Shown here: one piece after another, positions 478 to 7,360 of the stretch
Numbering within the stretch: the stretch's first letter is position 1
Layout of the letters: the number at the start of each line of letters is the position of its first letter
IMG/VR virus record: IMGVR_UViG_3300025102_000384
Coordinates: 1 to 20,137 of that record
DNA: 20,137 bases
Strand: one strand, 5' to 3'
Source of the DNA: a virus
Notes under the pieces: model-generated
What the model saw: only the letters and a program-made list of their open reading frames with translations
The model's database searches: none
Told to the model about the DNA's origin: nothing
Translations under genes and position numbers: made by a program

Positions 478-910
478 TATCTCTGAAGCCTTTATTCTCT
501 AAAAGTCCCCATGCGCCTAGATAGATTCCCCATTTTGCATCATCTATGTTAGAGGTATTGACTGATATGGTCTTCATTCCGTAGATGGCATCGTAAGGGA
601 TGATGAGAAACTCATTGGTTGGCATACCAACGAAGATATAAACATCTATATCGCATCTGTCATGGATAGTTTTTTTAGAGTGGCCTCCCCTGATAGTCCA
701 CTTGTAGGCCTTTTCGTTGCCTGAAGGGTGGTTAAATTTGGTGGCAGACTTGATTTGCACCTTATGAGTGAATCTGCCTTTAGTTATTATTCTATCGTAG
801 GGGGCGTAGTCTCCTTCGGGAGTGGATACGAACCAATTACGTTTGATTAATTCAGCGGTGACAACGCATTCAGCGGCTGTTCCTAGCTGCTTGTTATGGT
901 GTGTTCCCAT
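461..910 (-). CDS. PD-(D/E)XK family endonuclease
   Basis: A 149-residue protein whose first 60 residues match the pattern of small PD-(D/E)XK nucleases related to the I-Ssp6803I / PDDEXK_5 group. A helix carries GTAAE (Glu14), followed by the strand containing Asp39 (APYDRII) and the Q-x-K strand (VQIKSATK, Gln52 and Lys54). These would be the metal- and phosphate-binding residues. The rest is a mixed alpha/beta tail with Trp-rich segments. The gene starts inside the end of the helicase gene (17-base overlap) and is probably translated with it. Such enzymes act as homing endonucleases, Holliday-junction or branched-DNA nucleases, or restriction-like enzymes. The coupling to the helicase favours a role in DNA replication or recombination, which is inference. 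Family call fairly firm, substrate unknown. Confidence 0.7.
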   Translation of the reverse strand: MGTHHNKQLGTAAECVVTAELIKRNWFVSTPEGDYAPYDRIITKGRFTHKVQIKSATKFNHPSGNEKAYKWTIRGGHSKKTIHDRCDIDVYIFVGMPTNEFLIIPYDAIYGMKTISVNTSNIDDAKWGIYLGAWGLLENKGFRDTIQDH

Positions 911-2261
911 AGCTGTCTACGGGAATGTCTACTACAGGTGAAGCGTCTCGCATCTTGGTGTACTTTGGGACGAACTCAATATTGATTTCACCCACTGGGC
1001 CATTCCTCTGTTTGGCAACTATGAGGGACAAGGGGTATGGTTTTCCGTCAGACATGTCAACGTCATTATCCCTATGGAGCATAACTACTACGTCTGCATC
1101 TTGTTCTATTGCTCCTGAGTCTCTGAGGTCTGTTAGGCGAGGTTTACGTTCGTTTATGGTTCCAGCGCGGGAGAGTTGAGATAAGCAGACTACGGGTACG
1201 TTTAAGTCCTTTGCTAGGGCTTTTAGTTGTGATGACCAGTATCCTACTTCTAGGGCTCTGGTTTCAAATTTCTTGGAGGATGATATTATCTGGAGGTAGT
1301 CGATTACGATTAGGTCTATGCCTACGTCACGCTTAAGTCTTTTGGATTTAGATTTAATATTATGGATGGTGCAGGTTCCGCTATCGTCGACGAAGATTGG
1401 GCGTTTACCGATGAGGTCAATGCCAGCCTGAATCTTCTTCATATCATCTTGGGAAAGGTTGCCTTTGAGAGCGTCACGGTAGTCGAGGTTCATCTCGGAG
1501 CAGATGGATCGCATTTGGAGTTGAGCGGCTGTCATCTCTAGGGAGAAGAACAGGACGTTATGACCACGGGCTGCTGCTGCATCGGAGATGCAGAGACCGA
1601 GTGAAGTTTTGCCTACGCTTGGCCTAGCGGCGATGATATTCAGTTCACCTTTGTTGAGTCCTGAGATCATCTGATCGAGGTTGTATAAGCCAGTAGTGAT
1701 TCCCTTGATGCCACCTTTACGGTTGAAGCAATCAGTGAAGAACTCCACGGTATCCTGCCTAATGTCCTTATAAGCCCTTACAGACGTTTCTGAATCCCTT
1801 ACCTTGCACAGACCCTCTGCTCTTTCAAAAAGCTCTTCTAGTACCCCTGTGGGCTTAGCACTGGGGTCTTGTGCTATCCTTGATGATACCTCATCACATA
1901 GTGACTTGGTTTCCCGCTTCATTTTTGTTTCTTGCAGGATTTCCAGATAGTACTCCCAGTTGAGCGGGGAGGGTGTGATGCTCTCGCATTCATCCACGAA
2001 CTGGATGTTCTGGTGGATATTGTTTTCGATGAACTTGCGATTGATGGTGACTTTATCTATCAGCCGATCTTTGTCGTATAGGTCAAGTATCACCAGCATG
2101 TGATTCTTGCAGATCGGATCGGTGAATAGATTAAGCGGCCTATCTTCCCTCGTAAGCAGCTTGTCTAAGATTTGGGGGTCTAGAAGAATACAACCGATCA
2201 GTCCTCGCTCTGCTGTGTAATCTTCAAGATGGTCTAGCTTTTTATTATTTAACCTCTGCAT
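894..2261 (-). CDS. dnaB: DnaB-type replicative DNA helicase
   Basis: A 455-residue RecA-fold helicase that would form a hexamer and unwind DNA 5' to 3' at the replication fork. An N-terminal helical domain (about residues 15-150, with RGLIGCILLDP near 19-29) resembles the DnaB primase/loader-interacting domain. The motor domain follows: Walker A ARPSVGKTS (212-220), the FFSLEM segment (238-243), Walker B LIVIDYLQI (317-325), the LSQLSR sensor (360-365) and the PRLTDLRDSGAIEQDAD arginine-finger region (374-390). Length is typical of DnaB. The start ATG at 2261 directly abuts a GAGG, too close for an ideal ribosome binding site, so translation may depend on upstream reading. It lies just past a TA-rich region and an iteron-bearing initiator gene, and overlaps the nuclease gene downstream. 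Phages with their own helicase bypass host helicase loading; that is known for the family. Confidence 0.95.
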   Translation of the reverse strand: MQRLNNKKLDHLEDYTAERGLIGCILLDPQILDKLLTREDRPLNLFTDPICKNHMLVILDLYDKDRLIDKVTINRKFIENNIHQNIQFVDECESITPSPLNWEYYLEILQETKMKRETKSLCDEVSSRIAQDPSAKPTGVLEELFERAEGLCKVRDSETSVRAYKDIRQDTVEFFTDCFNRKGGIKGITTGLYNLDQMISGLNKGELNIIAARPSVGKTSLGLCISDAAAARGHNVLFFSLEMTAAQLQMRSICSEMNLDYRDALKGNLSQDDMKKIQAGIDLIGKRPIFVDDSGTCTIHNIKSKSKRLKRDVGIDLIVIDYLQIISSSKKFETRALEVGYWSSQLKALAKDLNVPVVCLSQLSRAGTINERKPRLTDLRDSGAIEQDADVVVMLHRDNDVDMSDGKPYPLSLIVAKQRNGPVGEINIEFVPKYTKMRDASPVVDIPVDSYGNTP

Positions 2262-2337
2262 CCTCGTTAATTATATTGTACTACTATAGATGTTAATTTG
2301 TGTTATAGATATATATATATATATAGATATATATGTG
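2262..2337. other. TA-rich stretch, likely DNA-unwinding element
   Basis: The 76 bases between the winged-helix stop and the helicase start are almost entirely A and T, with an alternating TA run near 2309-2334. It directly adjoins the iteron array on the helicase side. In lambda-type origins an AT-rich element beside initiator-bound iterons melts first; the same layout here suggests this role by analogy. Confidence 0.6.
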
Positions 2338-2760
2338 TTAAGAGAATTTAGCCGCAGTTGCGCCCATTCCGCCGATAAAAATGTCCTGAACTGGGTCTTT
2401 AGACTCAACTGTTGAGTTCATTGACTCAACACTTGAGTCATCTGACTCAGTAACTGAGTCTTTATACTCAACTTGAACTGGGTCATTTGACTCAACTACT
2501 GAGTCATTAGACTCACCTATTGCGTCAATTGACTCAGTTGTATCTAGACCTGAGTAGGTGGATACCTTGGAGCGGTTATTGGTCTTGATGACTAGCTGTT
2601 TGGATATCAGCGAGGGCAATCTTTTACTAATTGCTTTACGAGTCATACCTGTTTTGTAGGACAATTTGTTTATAGACATATCGTCTTCACATAACAGGGC
2701 TGCGTATATGCGAAAGCTCAGTGGGTCGAGCTTCGTTCGGTTAAGTTGATCTACTGTCAT
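2338..2760 (-). CDS. Winged-helix DNA-binding protein, probable replication initiator
   Basis: A 140-residue protein in two parts. Residues about 14-70 form a winged helix-turn-helix: a helix (LSFRIYAALL), a second helix (SINKLSYKTG), a recognition helix (RKAISKRLPSLISKQL) and a wing ending in VSTYSGL. Residues 74-124 are an acidic, disordered-looking heptad series of the ES-x-D-S type (for example IGESNDS, VTESDDS, TVESKDP) encoded by seven 21-bp DNA repeats. The tail is QDIFIGGMGATAAKFS. The repeats look selected as DNA rather than protein, because their palindromic core is the conserved part. The gene precedes a helicase gene, which fits an O-like initiator that recruits helicase. A transcriptional repressor is the main alternative. 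A terminator-like hairpin and U-run end five bases upstream of the start, suggesting attenuation. Confidence 0.7.
   Translation of the reverse strand: MTVDQLNRTKLDPLSFRIYAALLCEDDMSINKLSYKTGMTRKAISKRLPSLISKQLVIKTNNRSKVSTYSGLDTTESIDAIGESNDSVVESNDPVQVEYKDSVTESDDSSVESMNSTVESKDPVQDIFIGGMGATAAKFS
2392..2541. repeat. Seven tandem 21-bp palindromic iterons
   Basis: Units start at 2392, 2413, 2434, 2455, 2479, 2500 and 2521; all are 21 bp except the fourth, which is 24 bp. Each holds an inverted repeat, consensus TGAGTCA-NN-TGACTCA. The third unit is perfect (TGAGTCATCTGACTCA); the others have one to a few changes, such as TGGGTC, TGCGTC or TACTCA. Twenty-one bases is two helical turns, so all palindromes face the same side, apart from a three-base offset after unit 4. 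A longer near-duplication places 2387-2430 and 2474-2517 87 bp apart, so the array probably grew by duplicating a block of about four units. The array lies wholly within the coding sequence. Confidence 0.9.
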
Positions 2761-2763
2761 TGT

Positions 2764-2801
2764 AAAAAAAAGACCCCCTTGCAGGCCAGATTGCAGAGGT
2801 C
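2764..2801 (-). terminator. Intrinsic terminator or attenuator before the winged-helix gene
   Basis: Read leftward, GACCTCT (2801-2795) pairs with GGGGGTC (2778-2772), extended inward by GCA/TGC, and is followed at once by eight T residues (2771-2764). Two of the outer-stem pairs are G-U in the leftward RNA but would be C-A mismatches in a rightward RNA, so the structure fits the minus strand. It ends just before the winged-helix ATG at 2760, which suggests an attenuator for the replication block. Confidence 0.6.
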
Positions 2802-2917
2802 GGCTACTAGAAAAGCGAGAAACTAGCTAAGCCATAGGCCCGTAAGGGGGTGTAAAATACTGTTGTTCTTCTTCTTCCTAGCCGATAGCCTGCGGGTAGC
2901 AGGCAAGTAACCTCTGC
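2764..2917 (-). ncRNA. Structured leader RNA or small RNA candidate
   Basis: The leftward transcript can form several long pairings. GCAGAGGT (2917-2910) is fully complementary to ACCTCTGC (2800-2793). TCGGCTA (2885-2879, minus strand) pairs with TAGCCGA (2806-2800). A strong hairpin lies between them (GCCTGC/GCAGGC, 2904-2888). ACCCCCTT (2851-2844) pairs with AAGGGGGT (2780-2773). The first and last helices cross, giving a pseudoknot, and both compete with the terminator at 2801-2764. It could be a cis-acting attenuator for the initiator gene or a free small RNA ending at the U-run. It matches no RNA family I recognise. Confidence 0.5.
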
Positions 2918-2969
2918 GGGGGTAAGAGTACACCTGCACCTTGAGGCGGCAAGCCCTTTTTAAAAAAAA

Positions 2970-3713
2970 ATGCAAAGCAATGAAAAACTCCTGAAAAACA
3001 TAGCAGAAACAGGAGTTATCAGTTTGCCTCAGATGAAGCTTGTATGGGAGGTCATGCAGGAGCAGATGCTCGAAATGATGGTCAACAAGCAGGATTCCAT
3101 TGATCTAGGATTTGCAGAAATTTATCCGATCCCGTACCGAGCTAACTGGAAGAATGGGCTCTATGATGAGTTCAAATCGCTTGGCCAAGACTTCAAAGGT
3201 AAGGGCCATGAGGCGTGTGTGGAGATAGCTCAGGACAAAGGATTCTGGGCTGAGATGAGCAACACCAGACTACTGGCATTTAAGGACGATCACATCTATT
3301 GGACGATAGAGGTGGTTCCTAAAAAGCAGTGGTGGGCAAGCACCATAAAGGCAGAGAAGGAAAAGAGAAGTAAGCTATCGGCAGCAGATTATTGTAAGTA
3401 TGTGGCCAAGCTAATTTATAAACTGAAAGGAAAACTGTTAGATGTCTATCGTTCGTTTGTATCGCAAGCGGCTATCCCGTGCGGGGGCATTCGCAATAGT
3501 CGCGTTGCAGGGGGCCACTTCCTTGTGCCGTTCATTAGGTCTCGCCAAGTGTCTGCCAAGCATCCTGAGAACAGGGGGCCAGTTGATGTGGTGGTCAATC
3601 TTCGGGATGCCTTACACGCAAACGGTGGACTCGACCACACGGCTGGCGAGATACCGAGAGTGTTGGCAGTGTCCGATATTCAACCCCAAGAGAAAGACTT
3701 GCGGGAGACATGA
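2970..3713 (+). CDS. Hypothetical protein with suspect 3' end
   Basis: A 247-codon frame of unknown function. Residues 1 to about 157 look like a normal, mostly alpha/beta protein with Trp- and Lys-rich segments (PIPYRANWKNGLYDEF, IYWTIEVVPKKQWW). After about residue 158 the frame lies over the next gene, whose own frame (from ATG 3442) looks far more protein-like, and the composition here becomes odd (GGIRNSRVAGGHFLVP). A TAG at 3439-3441, in the next gene's frame, stands directly before ATG 3442. A one-base shift near the AAAA at 3431-3434 would end this protein there. So the true product may be about 157 residues, with a frameshift or sequence error. The ATG at 2970 has no close ribosome binding site. 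It begins a rightward cluster divergent from the replication block. Confidence 0.6.
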   Translation: MQSNEKLLKNIAETGVISLPQMKLVWEVMQEQMLEMMVNKQDSIDLGFAEIYPIPYRANWKNGLYDEFKSLGQDFKGKGHEACVEIAQDKGFWAEMSNTRLLAFKDDHIYWTIEVVPKKQWWASTIKAEKEKRSKLSAADYCKYVAKLIYKLKGKLLDVYRSFVSQAAIPCGGIRNSRVAGGHFLVPFIRSRQVSAKHPENRGPVDVVVNLRDALHANGGLDHTAGEIPRVLAVSDIQPQEKDLRET

Positions 3714-3819
3714 CGATCCTGAATTAGGATGTATGTGTTATATGCCTTTGAAAACAAAGTATAAGGACGCGACATGTTGGGCGCGTGATAATGATTTAGA
3801 GTTTGGATGGAATGAGTGA
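3442..3819 (+). CDS. Cysteine-rich phage protein, probable metal-binding knuckle
   Basis: A 125-residue protein with a basic N-terminus, a moderately hydrophobic helix at about residues 14-36 (AGAFAIVALQGATSLCRSLG) and a C-terminal cysteine cluster: C74-x2-C77, C87, C97-x-C99 and C112, in the context YRECWQCPIFNPKRKTCG and GCMCYMPLKTKYKDATCW. Spacing of this kind usually binds zinc. I recall similar small Cys-rich proteins from other tailed phages but cannot give a function. AAAGGA upstream could serve as a ribosome binding site and a stop codon directly precedes the ATG, so the start looks right. It overlaps the previous frame by 272 bases and the next gene by eight. Confidence 0.7.
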   Translation: MSIVRLYRKRLSRAGAFAIVALQGATSLCRSLGLAKCLPSILRTGGQLMWWSIFGMPYTQTVDSTTRLARYRECWQCPIFNPKRKTCGRHDDPELGCMCYMPLKTKYKDATCWARDNDLEFGWNE

Positions 3820-4453
3820 TACTGGAGTAATACCCGATGGTGGGACAGTCGATGTCCCAGATAGTAACCCCGTAGAAGTACCGCCTACTAAGGGATTATT
3901 TTCAAATAAGGAAGCTAAACAAGCAGCGGCCGAAACAGGATTAGTAGCTTTAAAAAGAAAAAAGTATGGGGAGCTAAAGAAGCTAGGAGACTTTATAGAG
4001 AAGGAAGGGGTAGTTAAGACCAGTATAGGGTATGTATTCCTATCAGCGGAGAAGCTGGAACCTCTTATGCAACTAGCGGCAGATATAGCATACGAATCAG
4101 ATGACGAGACTGTTAAGTTAACAGCTATAAGCAAAGCGGTTGAAGTATCCAAGCAGTTAACAGAATCAGCAAAAATCTGTAGTAATATGGTAAATGCCAA
4201 ACAGATCAAGCCAGAGGAGGCTAAAAAGAAAGCCAGCTTTGCTGCTGGACAAGTAGTAGCACCAATTCAAATCAATGACCCAAAACAAGTCAATATCACA
4301 GGAGGAGAGTCTGACAACGGAACAGGCGAGGGAGGCAATAATGGAAACGCTCAAGGCGATGCAACACAAGCCGAGCACAACATTCCTCGCGGGGATAATG
4401 TCGCAGGCACTGGGCCTAAAGACGGGAATGGCAAAGAAGGCAATCAAGTATAA
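3812..4453 (+). CDS. Hypothetical helical protein with Gly/Asn-rich tail
   Basis: A 213-residue protein from ATG 3812; an in-frame TTG at 3803 is a less likely start. Residues about 30-150 are helical and rich in K, E and A (SNKEAKQAAAETGLVALKRK, LEPLMQLAADIAYESDDETVKLTAISKAVEV). The last 55 residues are low-complexity Gly, Asn, Asp and Glu. It begins within the end of the Cys-rich gene, and its disordered tail is encoded by DNA that also encodes the start of the next gene. Position shortly before the large terminase gene and a helical build make a small terminase subunit conceivable, but no family signature is visible. Confidence 0.65.
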   Translation: MSDTGVIPDGGTVDVPDSNPVEVPPTKGLFSNKEAKQAAAETGLVALKRKKYGELKKLGDFIEKEGVVKTSIGYVFLSAEKLEPLMQLAADIAYESDDETVKLTAISKAVEVSKQLTESAKICSNMVNAKQIKPEEAKKKASFAAGQVVAPIQINDPKQVNITGGESDNGTGEGGNNGNAQGDATQAEHNIPRGDNVAGTGPKDGNGKEGNQV

Positions 4454-4718
4454 AATTGAAAATATACTATTGTTTGATAGAAAACAGAGTGACTACGGCA
4501 GTAAGAATATAGCTGCGTGGGATAAGAAAGACCTGAACATTCTTGGCGTGGGGTTCAGGCTCAATGATAAACTCCAGCGCATGATGAATCTAACTTGGAA
4601 GCGCATAGAGAGCAAAGAATCGCCAGAGGTTATAGAGGAAAGTATGATAGACACAGCGAAGGACATAGAGAACTACGGGACTATACTGGAGTTACTAGAG
4701 TCCGATGAATGGAGTTAA
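4341..4718 (+). CDS. Hypothetical protein overlapping its upstream neighbour
   Basis: I start this at ATG 4341 because GGGAGG (4330-4335) sits five bases before it, giving 125 residues. An in-frame ATG at 4275 without a good binding site would give 147. The protein is helical: an N-terminal segment (ETLKAMQHKPSTTFLAGIMSQ), a basic stretch (KKAIKYKIENILLFDRKQ) and an acidic C-terminus (DIENYGTILELLESDEWS). It overlaps the Gly/Asn-rich tail of the previous gene by 113 bases in another frame, and this frame looks the more constrained. A small terminase or packaging accessory role is possible from position only. No domain recognised. Confidence 0.65.
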   Translation: METLKAMQHKPSTTFLAGIMSQALGLKTGMAKKAIKYKIENILLFDRKQSDYGSKNIAAWDKKDLNILGVGFRLNDKLQRMMNLTWKRIESKESPEVIEESMIDTAKDIENYGTILELLESDEWS

Positions 4719-6848: not shown

Positions 6849-7076
6849 ATGATCACAGTATCAATAGATTTAACGAAAGAAGGTTATGAGGAATTGGCTG
6901 AGCTAATGTCTTCATACGCCGTCAATGACTCCGTTATTTTGGATAATGTTTCTGGCAGTATTTCTTCTATCAGCCCAGAAGGGGTAGAGATCAAGGTCGA
7001 TACTCTGGATATAGAGGATTACATGTACGAAGTCCCAGACTCAGAAGAGATGGACGAGCCTGAAGCGTTAGCTTAA
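6849..7076 (+). CDS. Small acidic hypothetical protein
   Basis: A 75-residue protein with an N-terminal strand-helix part (MITVSIDLTKEGYEELAELM) and alternating hydrophobic strands (SVILDNVSGSISSISPEGVEIKV by composition), then a very acidic tail (PDSEEMDEPEALA). It is the first rightward gene after the terminase promoter region and overlaps the next start by one base (TAATG). No good ribosome binding site; a palindrome lies just upstream. Function unknown, perhaps a regulator or minor head-assembly factor. Confidence 0.6.
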   Translation: MITVSIDLTKEGYEELAELMSSYAVNDSVILDNVSGSISSISPEGVEIKVDTLDIEDYMYEVPDSEEMDEPEALA

Positions 7077-7360
7077 TGCGGGAAGCGATAGAGGATAACC
7101 TCAAGGTCTTGGTTACTCAGGATAAGCAAGGAAGATATTCCTTCTCTATCCACATAAAGAGGCTGAAACCTGAGTTCGACCTAGAGAAAGGAACCGTTGT
7201 GTTTGGCCAATACAAAGGGGCGACAGGCAAGGTCGAGGAAGGTGTTCCTGTTAAAATGTTTTTAAAACTTTACGGCCAAAGCTCCTTAAAGGAGCGTTAT
7301 AACAGGTTAAAAAAAGCAGTCGACGAGGCTGAAAGAAAAGGAAAGCCAGTACTAATATGA
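7076..7360 (+). CDS. Hypothetical protein upstream of portal
   Basis: A 94-residue basic protein. The middle (RYSFSIHIKRLKPEFDLEKG, GTVVFGQYKGATGKV) looks like beta strands and the C-terminus is a charged helix (SLKERYNRLKKAVDEAERK). It is coupled to both neighbours by start-stop overlaps: TAATG at its start and ATGA at its end with the portal gene. This places it in the head operon. No family recognised. Confidence 0.6.
   Translation: MREAIEDNLKVLVTQDKQGRYSFSIHIKRLKPEFDLEKGTVVFGQYKGATGKVEEGVPVKMFLKLYGQSSLKERYNRLKKAVDEAERKGKPVLI

Follow-up and report, generated by a model that had tools for sequence, protein, structure and literature searches.

A conserved minus-strand RNA in front of a likely phage replication initiator gene, and its complementarity to the start of dnaB

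What lies in the gap between two divergent genes at the replication locus of this virus? The window, that is, the whole stretch of DNA analysed here, is a virus record of 20,137 bases, and the element under study occupies its minus strand at 2764-2917. It sits between the start of a leftward gene for a likely replication initiator and the start of a rightward gene at 2970 (g2970), which has no family match. Does this element encode an RNA, how would the RNA fold, and on which genes might it act?

The locus and its relatives

The leftward gene behind the element encodes a protein of 140 amino acids (2338-2760, minus strand). It is followed by a gene for a DnaB-type replicative helicase (894-2261, minus strand; Pfam DnaB_C, 3e-83; PHROG 19) and by a leftward PD-(D/E)XK endonuclease gene (461-910). 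The N-terminus of the 140-residue protein is a winged helix (Pfam matches slightly under the cut-off), and members of its family match an O-like replication initiation PHROG (7/8) and a second initiation family (6/8). Some members also match transcription-regulator and Ren-like families, and a PDB profile search with the 140-residue protein gave only weak matches, to MarR-type and other winged-helix proteins. Because of the winged helix and the matches to O-like and other initiation families, and despite the mixed others, the gene is called a likely initiator here, as the initial annotation had proposed. The sequence TGACTCA or its complement occurs six times inside the initiator gene, and an AT-rich stretch lies between this gene and dnaB; with these repeats, the interval at 2262-2540 is a candidate for a lambda-like origin. 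In the distant-clade records L044, L049, L052, and L057, TGGAAAA repeats (four or five copies) replace the TGACTCA type.

Is the element found in other viruses? A search with the initiator gave four close relatives, and a search with the terminase gave 17 loci. Ten of the 17 contain both g2970 and the initiator, and the RNA lies between the two genes in all ten; two of these entered the search as different cuts of the same contigs. The remaining seven show no initiator, the ends of the contigs being reached first. The element's own DNA pattern, a biased route, added two contigs (L057 and L058), and the relatives carrying the RNA element number 12 in total. Nine distinct elements were aligned (A6), and a second, model-based alignment (A10) comprises eleven rows, of which ten are distinct. 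L040/L012 and L058 were omitted as identical or nearly identical to L015 and L057, respectively; A6 additionally omits L047 and L050, which are identical or nearly so to L044 and L049. A10 was fitted to the helices P2-P4 described below and is thus biased towards them; a single origin is common to A6, A10, and the model R1, which are not independent tests.

In the species genomes, one exact element pattern had no match and the terminase search gave no confirmed relative. A blastn search of 50,697 named phages with the region gave no match either. In DNA and protein searches of the named phages, the terminase, g2970, the capsid-size gene, the initiator, the L052 element, and g3442 were unmatched; DnaB alone was matched, at less than 60% identity. 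Of 29 sources searched with model R1, the 16 that have no known copy yielded none, which says little, because several of the 16 are other cuts of contigs ending before the region and four have a terminase identity of 34-38%. R1 also gave three extra matches (E values of 0.064, 0.064, and 0.37), all of which overlap known copies but on the opposite strand. When the window and four relatives were searched with the covariance models of Rfam 15, no match reached the gathering score, and those listed at E values up to 10 were far below it (lowest E, 0.082). That the RNA belongs to no recognized family, as first noted, agrees with this search. No description of this phage RNA was found among the titles and abstract openings that word searches of the open PMC library listed.

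The DNA identity of the element is 0.64-0.90 in 15 pairwise comparisons of six records, versus 0.30-0.55 at the four-fold sites of dnaB; the 36 bases upstream of the element are 39-72% identical (15 comparisons, six records). The contrast is weaker against g2970, since its four-fold sites are 54-79% identical, closer to the element's values than to those of dnaB. The comparison supports purifying selection on the element. Judged from the alignments, a conserved minus-strand RNA folded around the helix P3 very likely exists.

The fold, the strand, and the promoter-like boxes

The putative RNA is 154 nt long in the window (2764-2917), and all nine distinct elements span 149-154 nt when measured from GCAGAG to the last U, which in L043 belongs to a short CUUUU. 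Read from 5′ to 3′ on the minus strand, it begins with the P1 5′ strand GCAGAGG (2911-2917), which a T-A pair at 2910 extends in the window. Next is the hairpin P2 (2888-2904), GCCTGC/GCAGGC in the window's clade and a longer hairpin of the type GTGG..AAGGCC/GGCCTT..CCAC in the distant clade. A linker rich in A and U (2852-2880), in which ACAA and TT are conserved, leads to the P3 5′ strand (2837-2851). The hairpin P4 (2802-2833) has the form GGC..GCTAG TTTCTCGCTTTT CTAGT..GCC, with a loop of the TTCTGCTCA type in the distant clade. After P4 come the P1 3′ strand CCTCTGC (2793-2799), the partner of 2917-2911, and the P3 3′ strand GGCCTGCAAGGGGGT (2773-2787). One base past P3, the RNA ends in a U8 tract (2764-2771). 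A tract of at least seven U was found in eight of the nine distinct elements, and the same eight have a GC-rich stem followed by the U-tract upstream of the gene on its strand; in L043, the tract and with it this arrangement are absent.

How well is this fold supported? The window's single sequence folds no better than its shuffles (minus strand, z = -0.89; 37 of 200 shuffles at least as good, no signal beyond chance), and the claim of a fold therefore rests on the relatives. P3 is a helix of 15 positions (2851-2837 with 2787-2773), 14 of which pair in the window, one as G-U. In a hand alignment, 134 of 154 P3 cells pair in register, versus at most 90 of 141 when slid. On A10, seven of 17 P3 pairs are changed on both sides (a number attained by 16 of 500 shuffles), and 17 cells are changed on both sides versus a shuffled mean of 6.8 (0/500 as high), a result inflated by the relatedness of the rows; slid versions have at most five such cells. 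Taken over the entire model, 89.8% of 400 cells pair, versus at most 56.6% when slid. Unguided, RNAalifold, which cannot draw pseudoknots, recovered P3, P4, and the inner three pairs of P2 on the minus strand. P1 is kept in ten of ten distinct rows, save one mismatched end pair in one row; because it is near-invariant and shows no covariation, the pairing is kept yet unproven. If P1 forms, as is probable, it crosses P3 and the fold is a pseudoknot. A kissing contact between the P2 loop GAGCAG and the P4 loop CTGCTC was also drawn by eye and is not claimed; five of the nine distinct elements would form four to seven of its pairs, and the window's clade would form none.

The initial annotation had drawn these segments as a short terminator hairpin and crossing helices that would destroy it. 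The segments and their complementarities do exist in the minus strand: GCAGAGGT (2917-2910) with ACCTCTGC (2800-2793), a second 7-bp helix (2885-2879 with 2806-2800), and ACCCCCTT (2851-2844) with AAGGGGGT (2780-2773). The last of these is real and covarying, not as a whole helix of 8 bp but as part of the 15-position P3. In the short terminator hairpin (2801-2795 with 2772-2778), none of the pairs is changed on both sides, and 77.6% of cells pair in register versus 85.1% when slid by one column. It is complete only in the four rows of the window's clade, its outer pairs being lost outside that clade. The second 7-bp helix likewise shows no changes on both sides of a pair, and only three of the ten distinct rows, all from the window's clade, can form it in full. 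Short cores of both can pair in other rows too. Compensatory changes in relatives, which had been suggested as a check, were thus found in P3 and not in P1, the short hairpin, or the second 7-bp helix.

In the window, the P3+P4 domain has an energy of -33.5 kcal/mol versus -12.0 kcal/mol for the local terminator hairpin; in the nine elements, the ranges are -31.5 to -38.1 and -6.1 to -12.0 kcal/mol. Since the annotated alternatives show no covariation and P3+P4 is far more stable, the best reading joins the crossing helices in one fold, with the long helix P3 as the terminator-like stem. The crossing itself is thereby retained as a probable pseudoknot whose helices are compatible with each other, not as an alternative that destroys a terminator. 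A mechanical scan calls the short stem at 2787-2772 with its U-run terminator-like. As to a conserved, mutually exclusive antiterminator, the annotated alternatives are not conserved, and a non-exhaustive look revealed no other conserved partner of P3.

Which strand is transcribed? On the minus strand, 22 cells are G-U and one is A-C in the helix cores (P2 of the distant clade, the 13-pair core of P3, and P4), a count that omits four P3 positions and the window's clade for P2. In all 18 hand-aligned columns of P3, the numbers are 15 G-U versus 11 A-C, the A-C cells lying at three positions (u9, v7, and v8). The consensus energy is -31.53 kcal/mol for the minus strand versus -26.28 kcal/mol for the plus strand. 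The G-U counts, the U-tract, and the consensus energies favour the minus strand, and the leftward RNA that had been deduced from G-U pairs is borne out to this extent. An RNA of the plus strand is disfavoured by its higher consensus energy and by the G-U and A-C counts; its single-sequence fold has little signal (z = -1.43, 16 of 200 shuffles as good). Visual inspection of the linker for a plus-strand promoter revealed no -35 box, and this possibility was abandoned.

Promoter-like boxes precede the element on the minus strand: a -35-like hexamer TTGCCG (2947-2952) and a -10-like hexamer TACTCT (2925-2930), the latter 7 nt before GCAGAG. An A/T tract directly 5′ of the -35-like hexamer (2957-2969) overlaps the start of g2970, recurs at the same place in relatives as T8-9 followed by A, and is presumably UP-element-like. 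The arrangement TTGnnn, 16-17 nt (19 in L043), T/C-A-nnn-T, seven bases, and GCAGAG was found in nine of nine distinct elements by a search that allowed spacers of 15-19 and 6-8. When the sequences are aligned on GCAGAG, A at -12 and T at -8 are invariant and T at -13 is present in six of seven, as are G at -22 and C at -3 in the variable upstream stretch. TAnnnT stands at one column in six of seven sequences (0/20,000 mononucleotide shuffles, in a test made after seeing the pattern). A sigma-70 consensus scan called no promoter on this strand here, and the -35 hexamers are poor matches to the consensus. The 5′ end of the RNA is predicted at 2918 or 2917. Of the promoter and terminator that mark a phage small RNA, the boxes are present at a fixed distance in all nine distinct elements and the U-tract in eight; both are candidate signals, the consensus scan having called no promoter.

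The initiator gene and the start of dnaB

How is the RNA connected to the genes behind it? Three bases, not the annotated five, separate the end of the U-tract from the ATG of the initiator (A at 2760), and the distance is only three to five bases in eight of the nine distinct elements. In these eight, P3 stands against the U-tract, and the idea of a terminator-like end before the initiator stands. The Shine-Dalgarno (SD)-like sequence of the initiator, AAGGGGGT (2780-2773), lies in the P3 3′ strand. The duplex of the SD-like AAGGGGGU has an energy of -11.7 kcal/mol, the lowest of 23 start entries, and this sequence stands 13 bases before the ATG, versus 8-10 bases in four clear cases among other genes; several genes of this virus carry ordinary SD sequences. 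In eight of nine distinct elements, the G-rich strand at the SD place gives -8.0 to -14.3 kcal/mol.

The exception is L043. It keeps the promoter-like boxes, the fold, and the length of the RNA; the U7-8 tract is absent, and about 180 extra bases precede the initiator ATG, before which no SD-like sequence was found (-0.1). Thus, neither termination nor SD coupling is universal, and L043 speaks more strongly than anything else in these sequences against a simple attenuator. The extra bases of L043 (4478-4662) are themselves rather well folded (z = -2.03, 8 of 200 shuffles) and have no Rfam match above the gathering score.

Does the RNA also match the helicase gene? The dnaB start (A)TGCAGAGGT (2252-2260, minus strand) is complementary to ACCTCTGCA in the region of the P1 3′ strand, taken with A2800 and A2792. 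A perfect complement of at least nine bases (9 to 12 nt) lies at the dnaB start in nine of 13 records, namely the window, L041, L015, L040, L042, L044, L047, L052, and L057. None of at least nine bases was found at this place in L043, L049, and L050, and the contig of L058 ends before the dnaB start. Chance complementary 9-mers are common elsewhere in the records, and M-S starts (ATGAGC) are common.

Energies around start codons, shuffles, and a cross-table were calculated for nine of the 13 records. In the interval from -8 to +13, dnaB ranks first among 400-915 start-like codons in four window-clade records for the P1 3′ segment. For the P4 loop, it ranks third of 597 in L044, fifth of 710 in L049, first of 688 in L052, and fourth of 219 in L057, and the ranks in L043 are 49th and 278th of 299. 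From -20 to +16, three RNA segments (the P4 loop, the P1 3′ strand, and the linker) were compared with the mapped gene starts. Here dnaB is first among 9 to 16 genes in seven of nine records (the window, L041, L015, L042, L043, L044, and L052), second of seven in L057, and third of 15 in L049. The segments differ between clades: (A)TGCAGAGGT against the P1 3′ strand gives -18.7 to -22.5 kcal/mol in the window's clade, and the ATGAGCAGAA region of dnaB against the P4 loop gives -19.2 and -18.1 kcal/mol in L044 and L052. In L043, GCAGAGG lies in the SD region of dnaB (-13.9 kcal/mol), a match that appears only from -20 to +16 and not from -8 to +13.

In the genomes of the six strong records, 5 to 9 of 2146 to 4468 intervals are as low, including those that overlap the dnaB site itself; the corresponding numbers are weak in L043 (37/1634), L049 (52/3430), and L057 (53/1184). 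Shuffled segments were never as low in six of nine records (0/3000), and were so 6, 34, and 51 times of 3000 in L043, L049, and L057, respectively. In the cross-table, P4 loops of the distant clade fit the window-clade dnaB poorly (-8.9 to -9.9). Pairing does not depend on partners from the same record: the P1 segment of every record fits the window-clade dnaB (-16.0 to -22.5), and the P4 loop of L043 fits the dnaB of L044 better than L044's own loop. Since the P1 segment is invariant and fits from any record, it is dnaB that matches the RNA in the window's clade, and there the dnaB pairing competes with P1. The match was noticed post hoc, and members within a clade are not independent; the complementarity to dnaB is a good lead and not a result.

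Two further observations concern these segments. The dnaB start (2250-2259) and the 5′ end of the RNA (2917-2908) share the 10-mer GCAGAGGTTA in the window, L041, L015, and L040; the RNA of L042, which begins with GCAGAGGGTG, lacks this shared 10-mer. The second-best complementarity is that of the P4 loop to the start of the gene at 7076 (7076-7095; -14.6 to -15.5 kcal/mol in the window, L041, L015, and L042).

Possible roles of the RNA

What might the RNA do? I give about even chances to a dual role, in which it would be both an attenuator leader of the initiator and dnaB genes and a small RNA acting on dnaB. A promoter that overlaps the start of g2970 would initiate leftward transcription around 2917/2918, and the RNA would fold as P1, P2, P3, and P4, with the pseudoknot formed where P1 crosses P3. 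The GC-rich base of P3 and the U8 tract would end most transcripts 3 nt short of the initiator ATG and release an RNA of about 154 nt, and the minority that reads through would encode the initiator and DnaB. In this longer messenger, the SD-like AAGGGGGU would be locked in P3 unless P3 opens. The released RNA, or the same segment in the long messenger, may pair with the dnaB start codon, through the P1 3′ strand in the window's clade and the P4 loop in the distant clade. This pairing would restrain helicase synthesis, and the replication supply would thus be set by the RNA. A terminator before the initiator could also limit origin activation, because repeats lie in the initiator gene and the AT-rich stretch lies after it. 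P3, the strand, the promoter-like boxes, the RNA length, and purifying selection are supported by comparison, the dnaB complementarity less firmly; I infer transcription, termination, the share of read-through, SD sequestration in vivo, and antisense repression of dnaB.

A bolder form of the dual role is put forward tentatively. The RNA may represent a new phage RNA family in which a single unit of about 154 nt controls replication in three ways: P3, crossed by P1, would end transcription before the initiator and hide the ribosome site of this gene, and the released RNA would pair with the dnaB start. As part of this tentative reading, the dnaB start would imitate a piece of the RNA, the P1 5′ strand GCAGAGG in the window's clade and the P2 loop GAGCAG in L052, so that the messenger and the RNA would compete for the same internal partner. 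The pairing site may also have moved between RNA segments as the beginning of dnaB changed. If true, a phage replication operon would be under the control of a self-contained RNA device, with a terminator strand that is also a ribosome site and an antisense site switched between clades. It would operate in viruses for which no relative among named phages was found beyond distant DnaB matches. It would offer a compact, testable system for an RNA setting the supply of phage replication, and a covariance model by which further members may be found.

Could the RNA act in cis only? A leader that attenuates transcription and controls translation, with P3 as the terminator that hides the SD-like sequence and the dnaB match due to chance, is possible but rather unlikely. 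P3 and the U-tract stand beside the ATG in eight of nine distinct elements with the SD-like sequence inside P3, and the post hoc dnaB match is weak in three of nine records. Against chance, dnaB is the best tested start in seven of nine records through segments that differ between the clades, and L043 retains the RNA although it has lost both the U-tract and the adjacency.

The same L043, decoupled from the initiator, is compatible with a purely trans-acting or protein-binding RNA beside which the terminator before the initiator would be incidental, as are the promoter-like boxes of its own and the uniform length. This is improbable, given the three to five bases between the U-tract and the ATG in eight of nine elements and the SD-like sequence in P3.

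Still less probable is an origin transcript, which would prime or activate an origin made of the initiator-gene repeats and the AT-rich stretch, like lambda pR. Iteron-like repeats and an AT-rich stretch are present, and lambda replication is described as stimulated by transcription through the origin (PMC3985674); however, the RNA ends before the repeats, and a fold is conserved, which goes beyond what transcription alone would need.

The metabolite- or protein-controlled switch of the initial annotation, between the short terminator hairpin and a pseudoknot destroying it, can be drawn in the window and includes the stem called by the scan, but it is very improbable, as the hairpin and the second 7-bp helix have no both-side changes, the outer pairs of the hairpin are lost beyond the window's clade, and no Rfam riboswitch matches; of its two proposals, a small RNA is better supported than a riboswitch.

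Are comparable systems known? The Listeria leader Rli51 is reported to be terminated early to give a 121-nt RNA that acts in trans (PMC11394854). The present RNA is similar in that leader termination would release a discrete RNA, predicted at about 154 nt and possibly trans-acting; it differs in the phage replication genes, the pseudoknot, and the terminator strand doubling as an SD-like sequence, all read here from sequence. Among phage small RNAs near replication functions, lambda OOP is described as antisense to cII and PreS as acting on host dnaN (PMC12197685). Like them, the present RNA is a short phage RNA adjoining, or aimed at, replication functions; unlike them as so described, it shares the strand of its presumed phage targets. 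OOP overlaps a gene of the opposite strand in antisense, whereas the present RNA lies in an intergenic gap on the initiator's strand. The put RNA of HK022, reported to suppress termination (PMC9378689), is a structured RNA of early phage transcripts that acts on transcription, as the present RNA would be; the present RNA, in contrast, ends in a terminator-like stem. The lambda-type replication region, as outlined in PMC7466680, also has repeats inside the initiator gene and an AT-rich stretch; here the AT-rich stretch lies after the gene and a structured RNA before it.

On the other side of the gap, a perfect 8-bp inverted repeat (AACTCCTG/CAGGAGTT, 2986-3017) lies just inside g2970. Long overlaps of reading frames follow, g2970 with g3442 (3442-3713) and g3803 with g4275 (4275-4453), and every member of these pairs is matched by tblastn in the relatives that span them.
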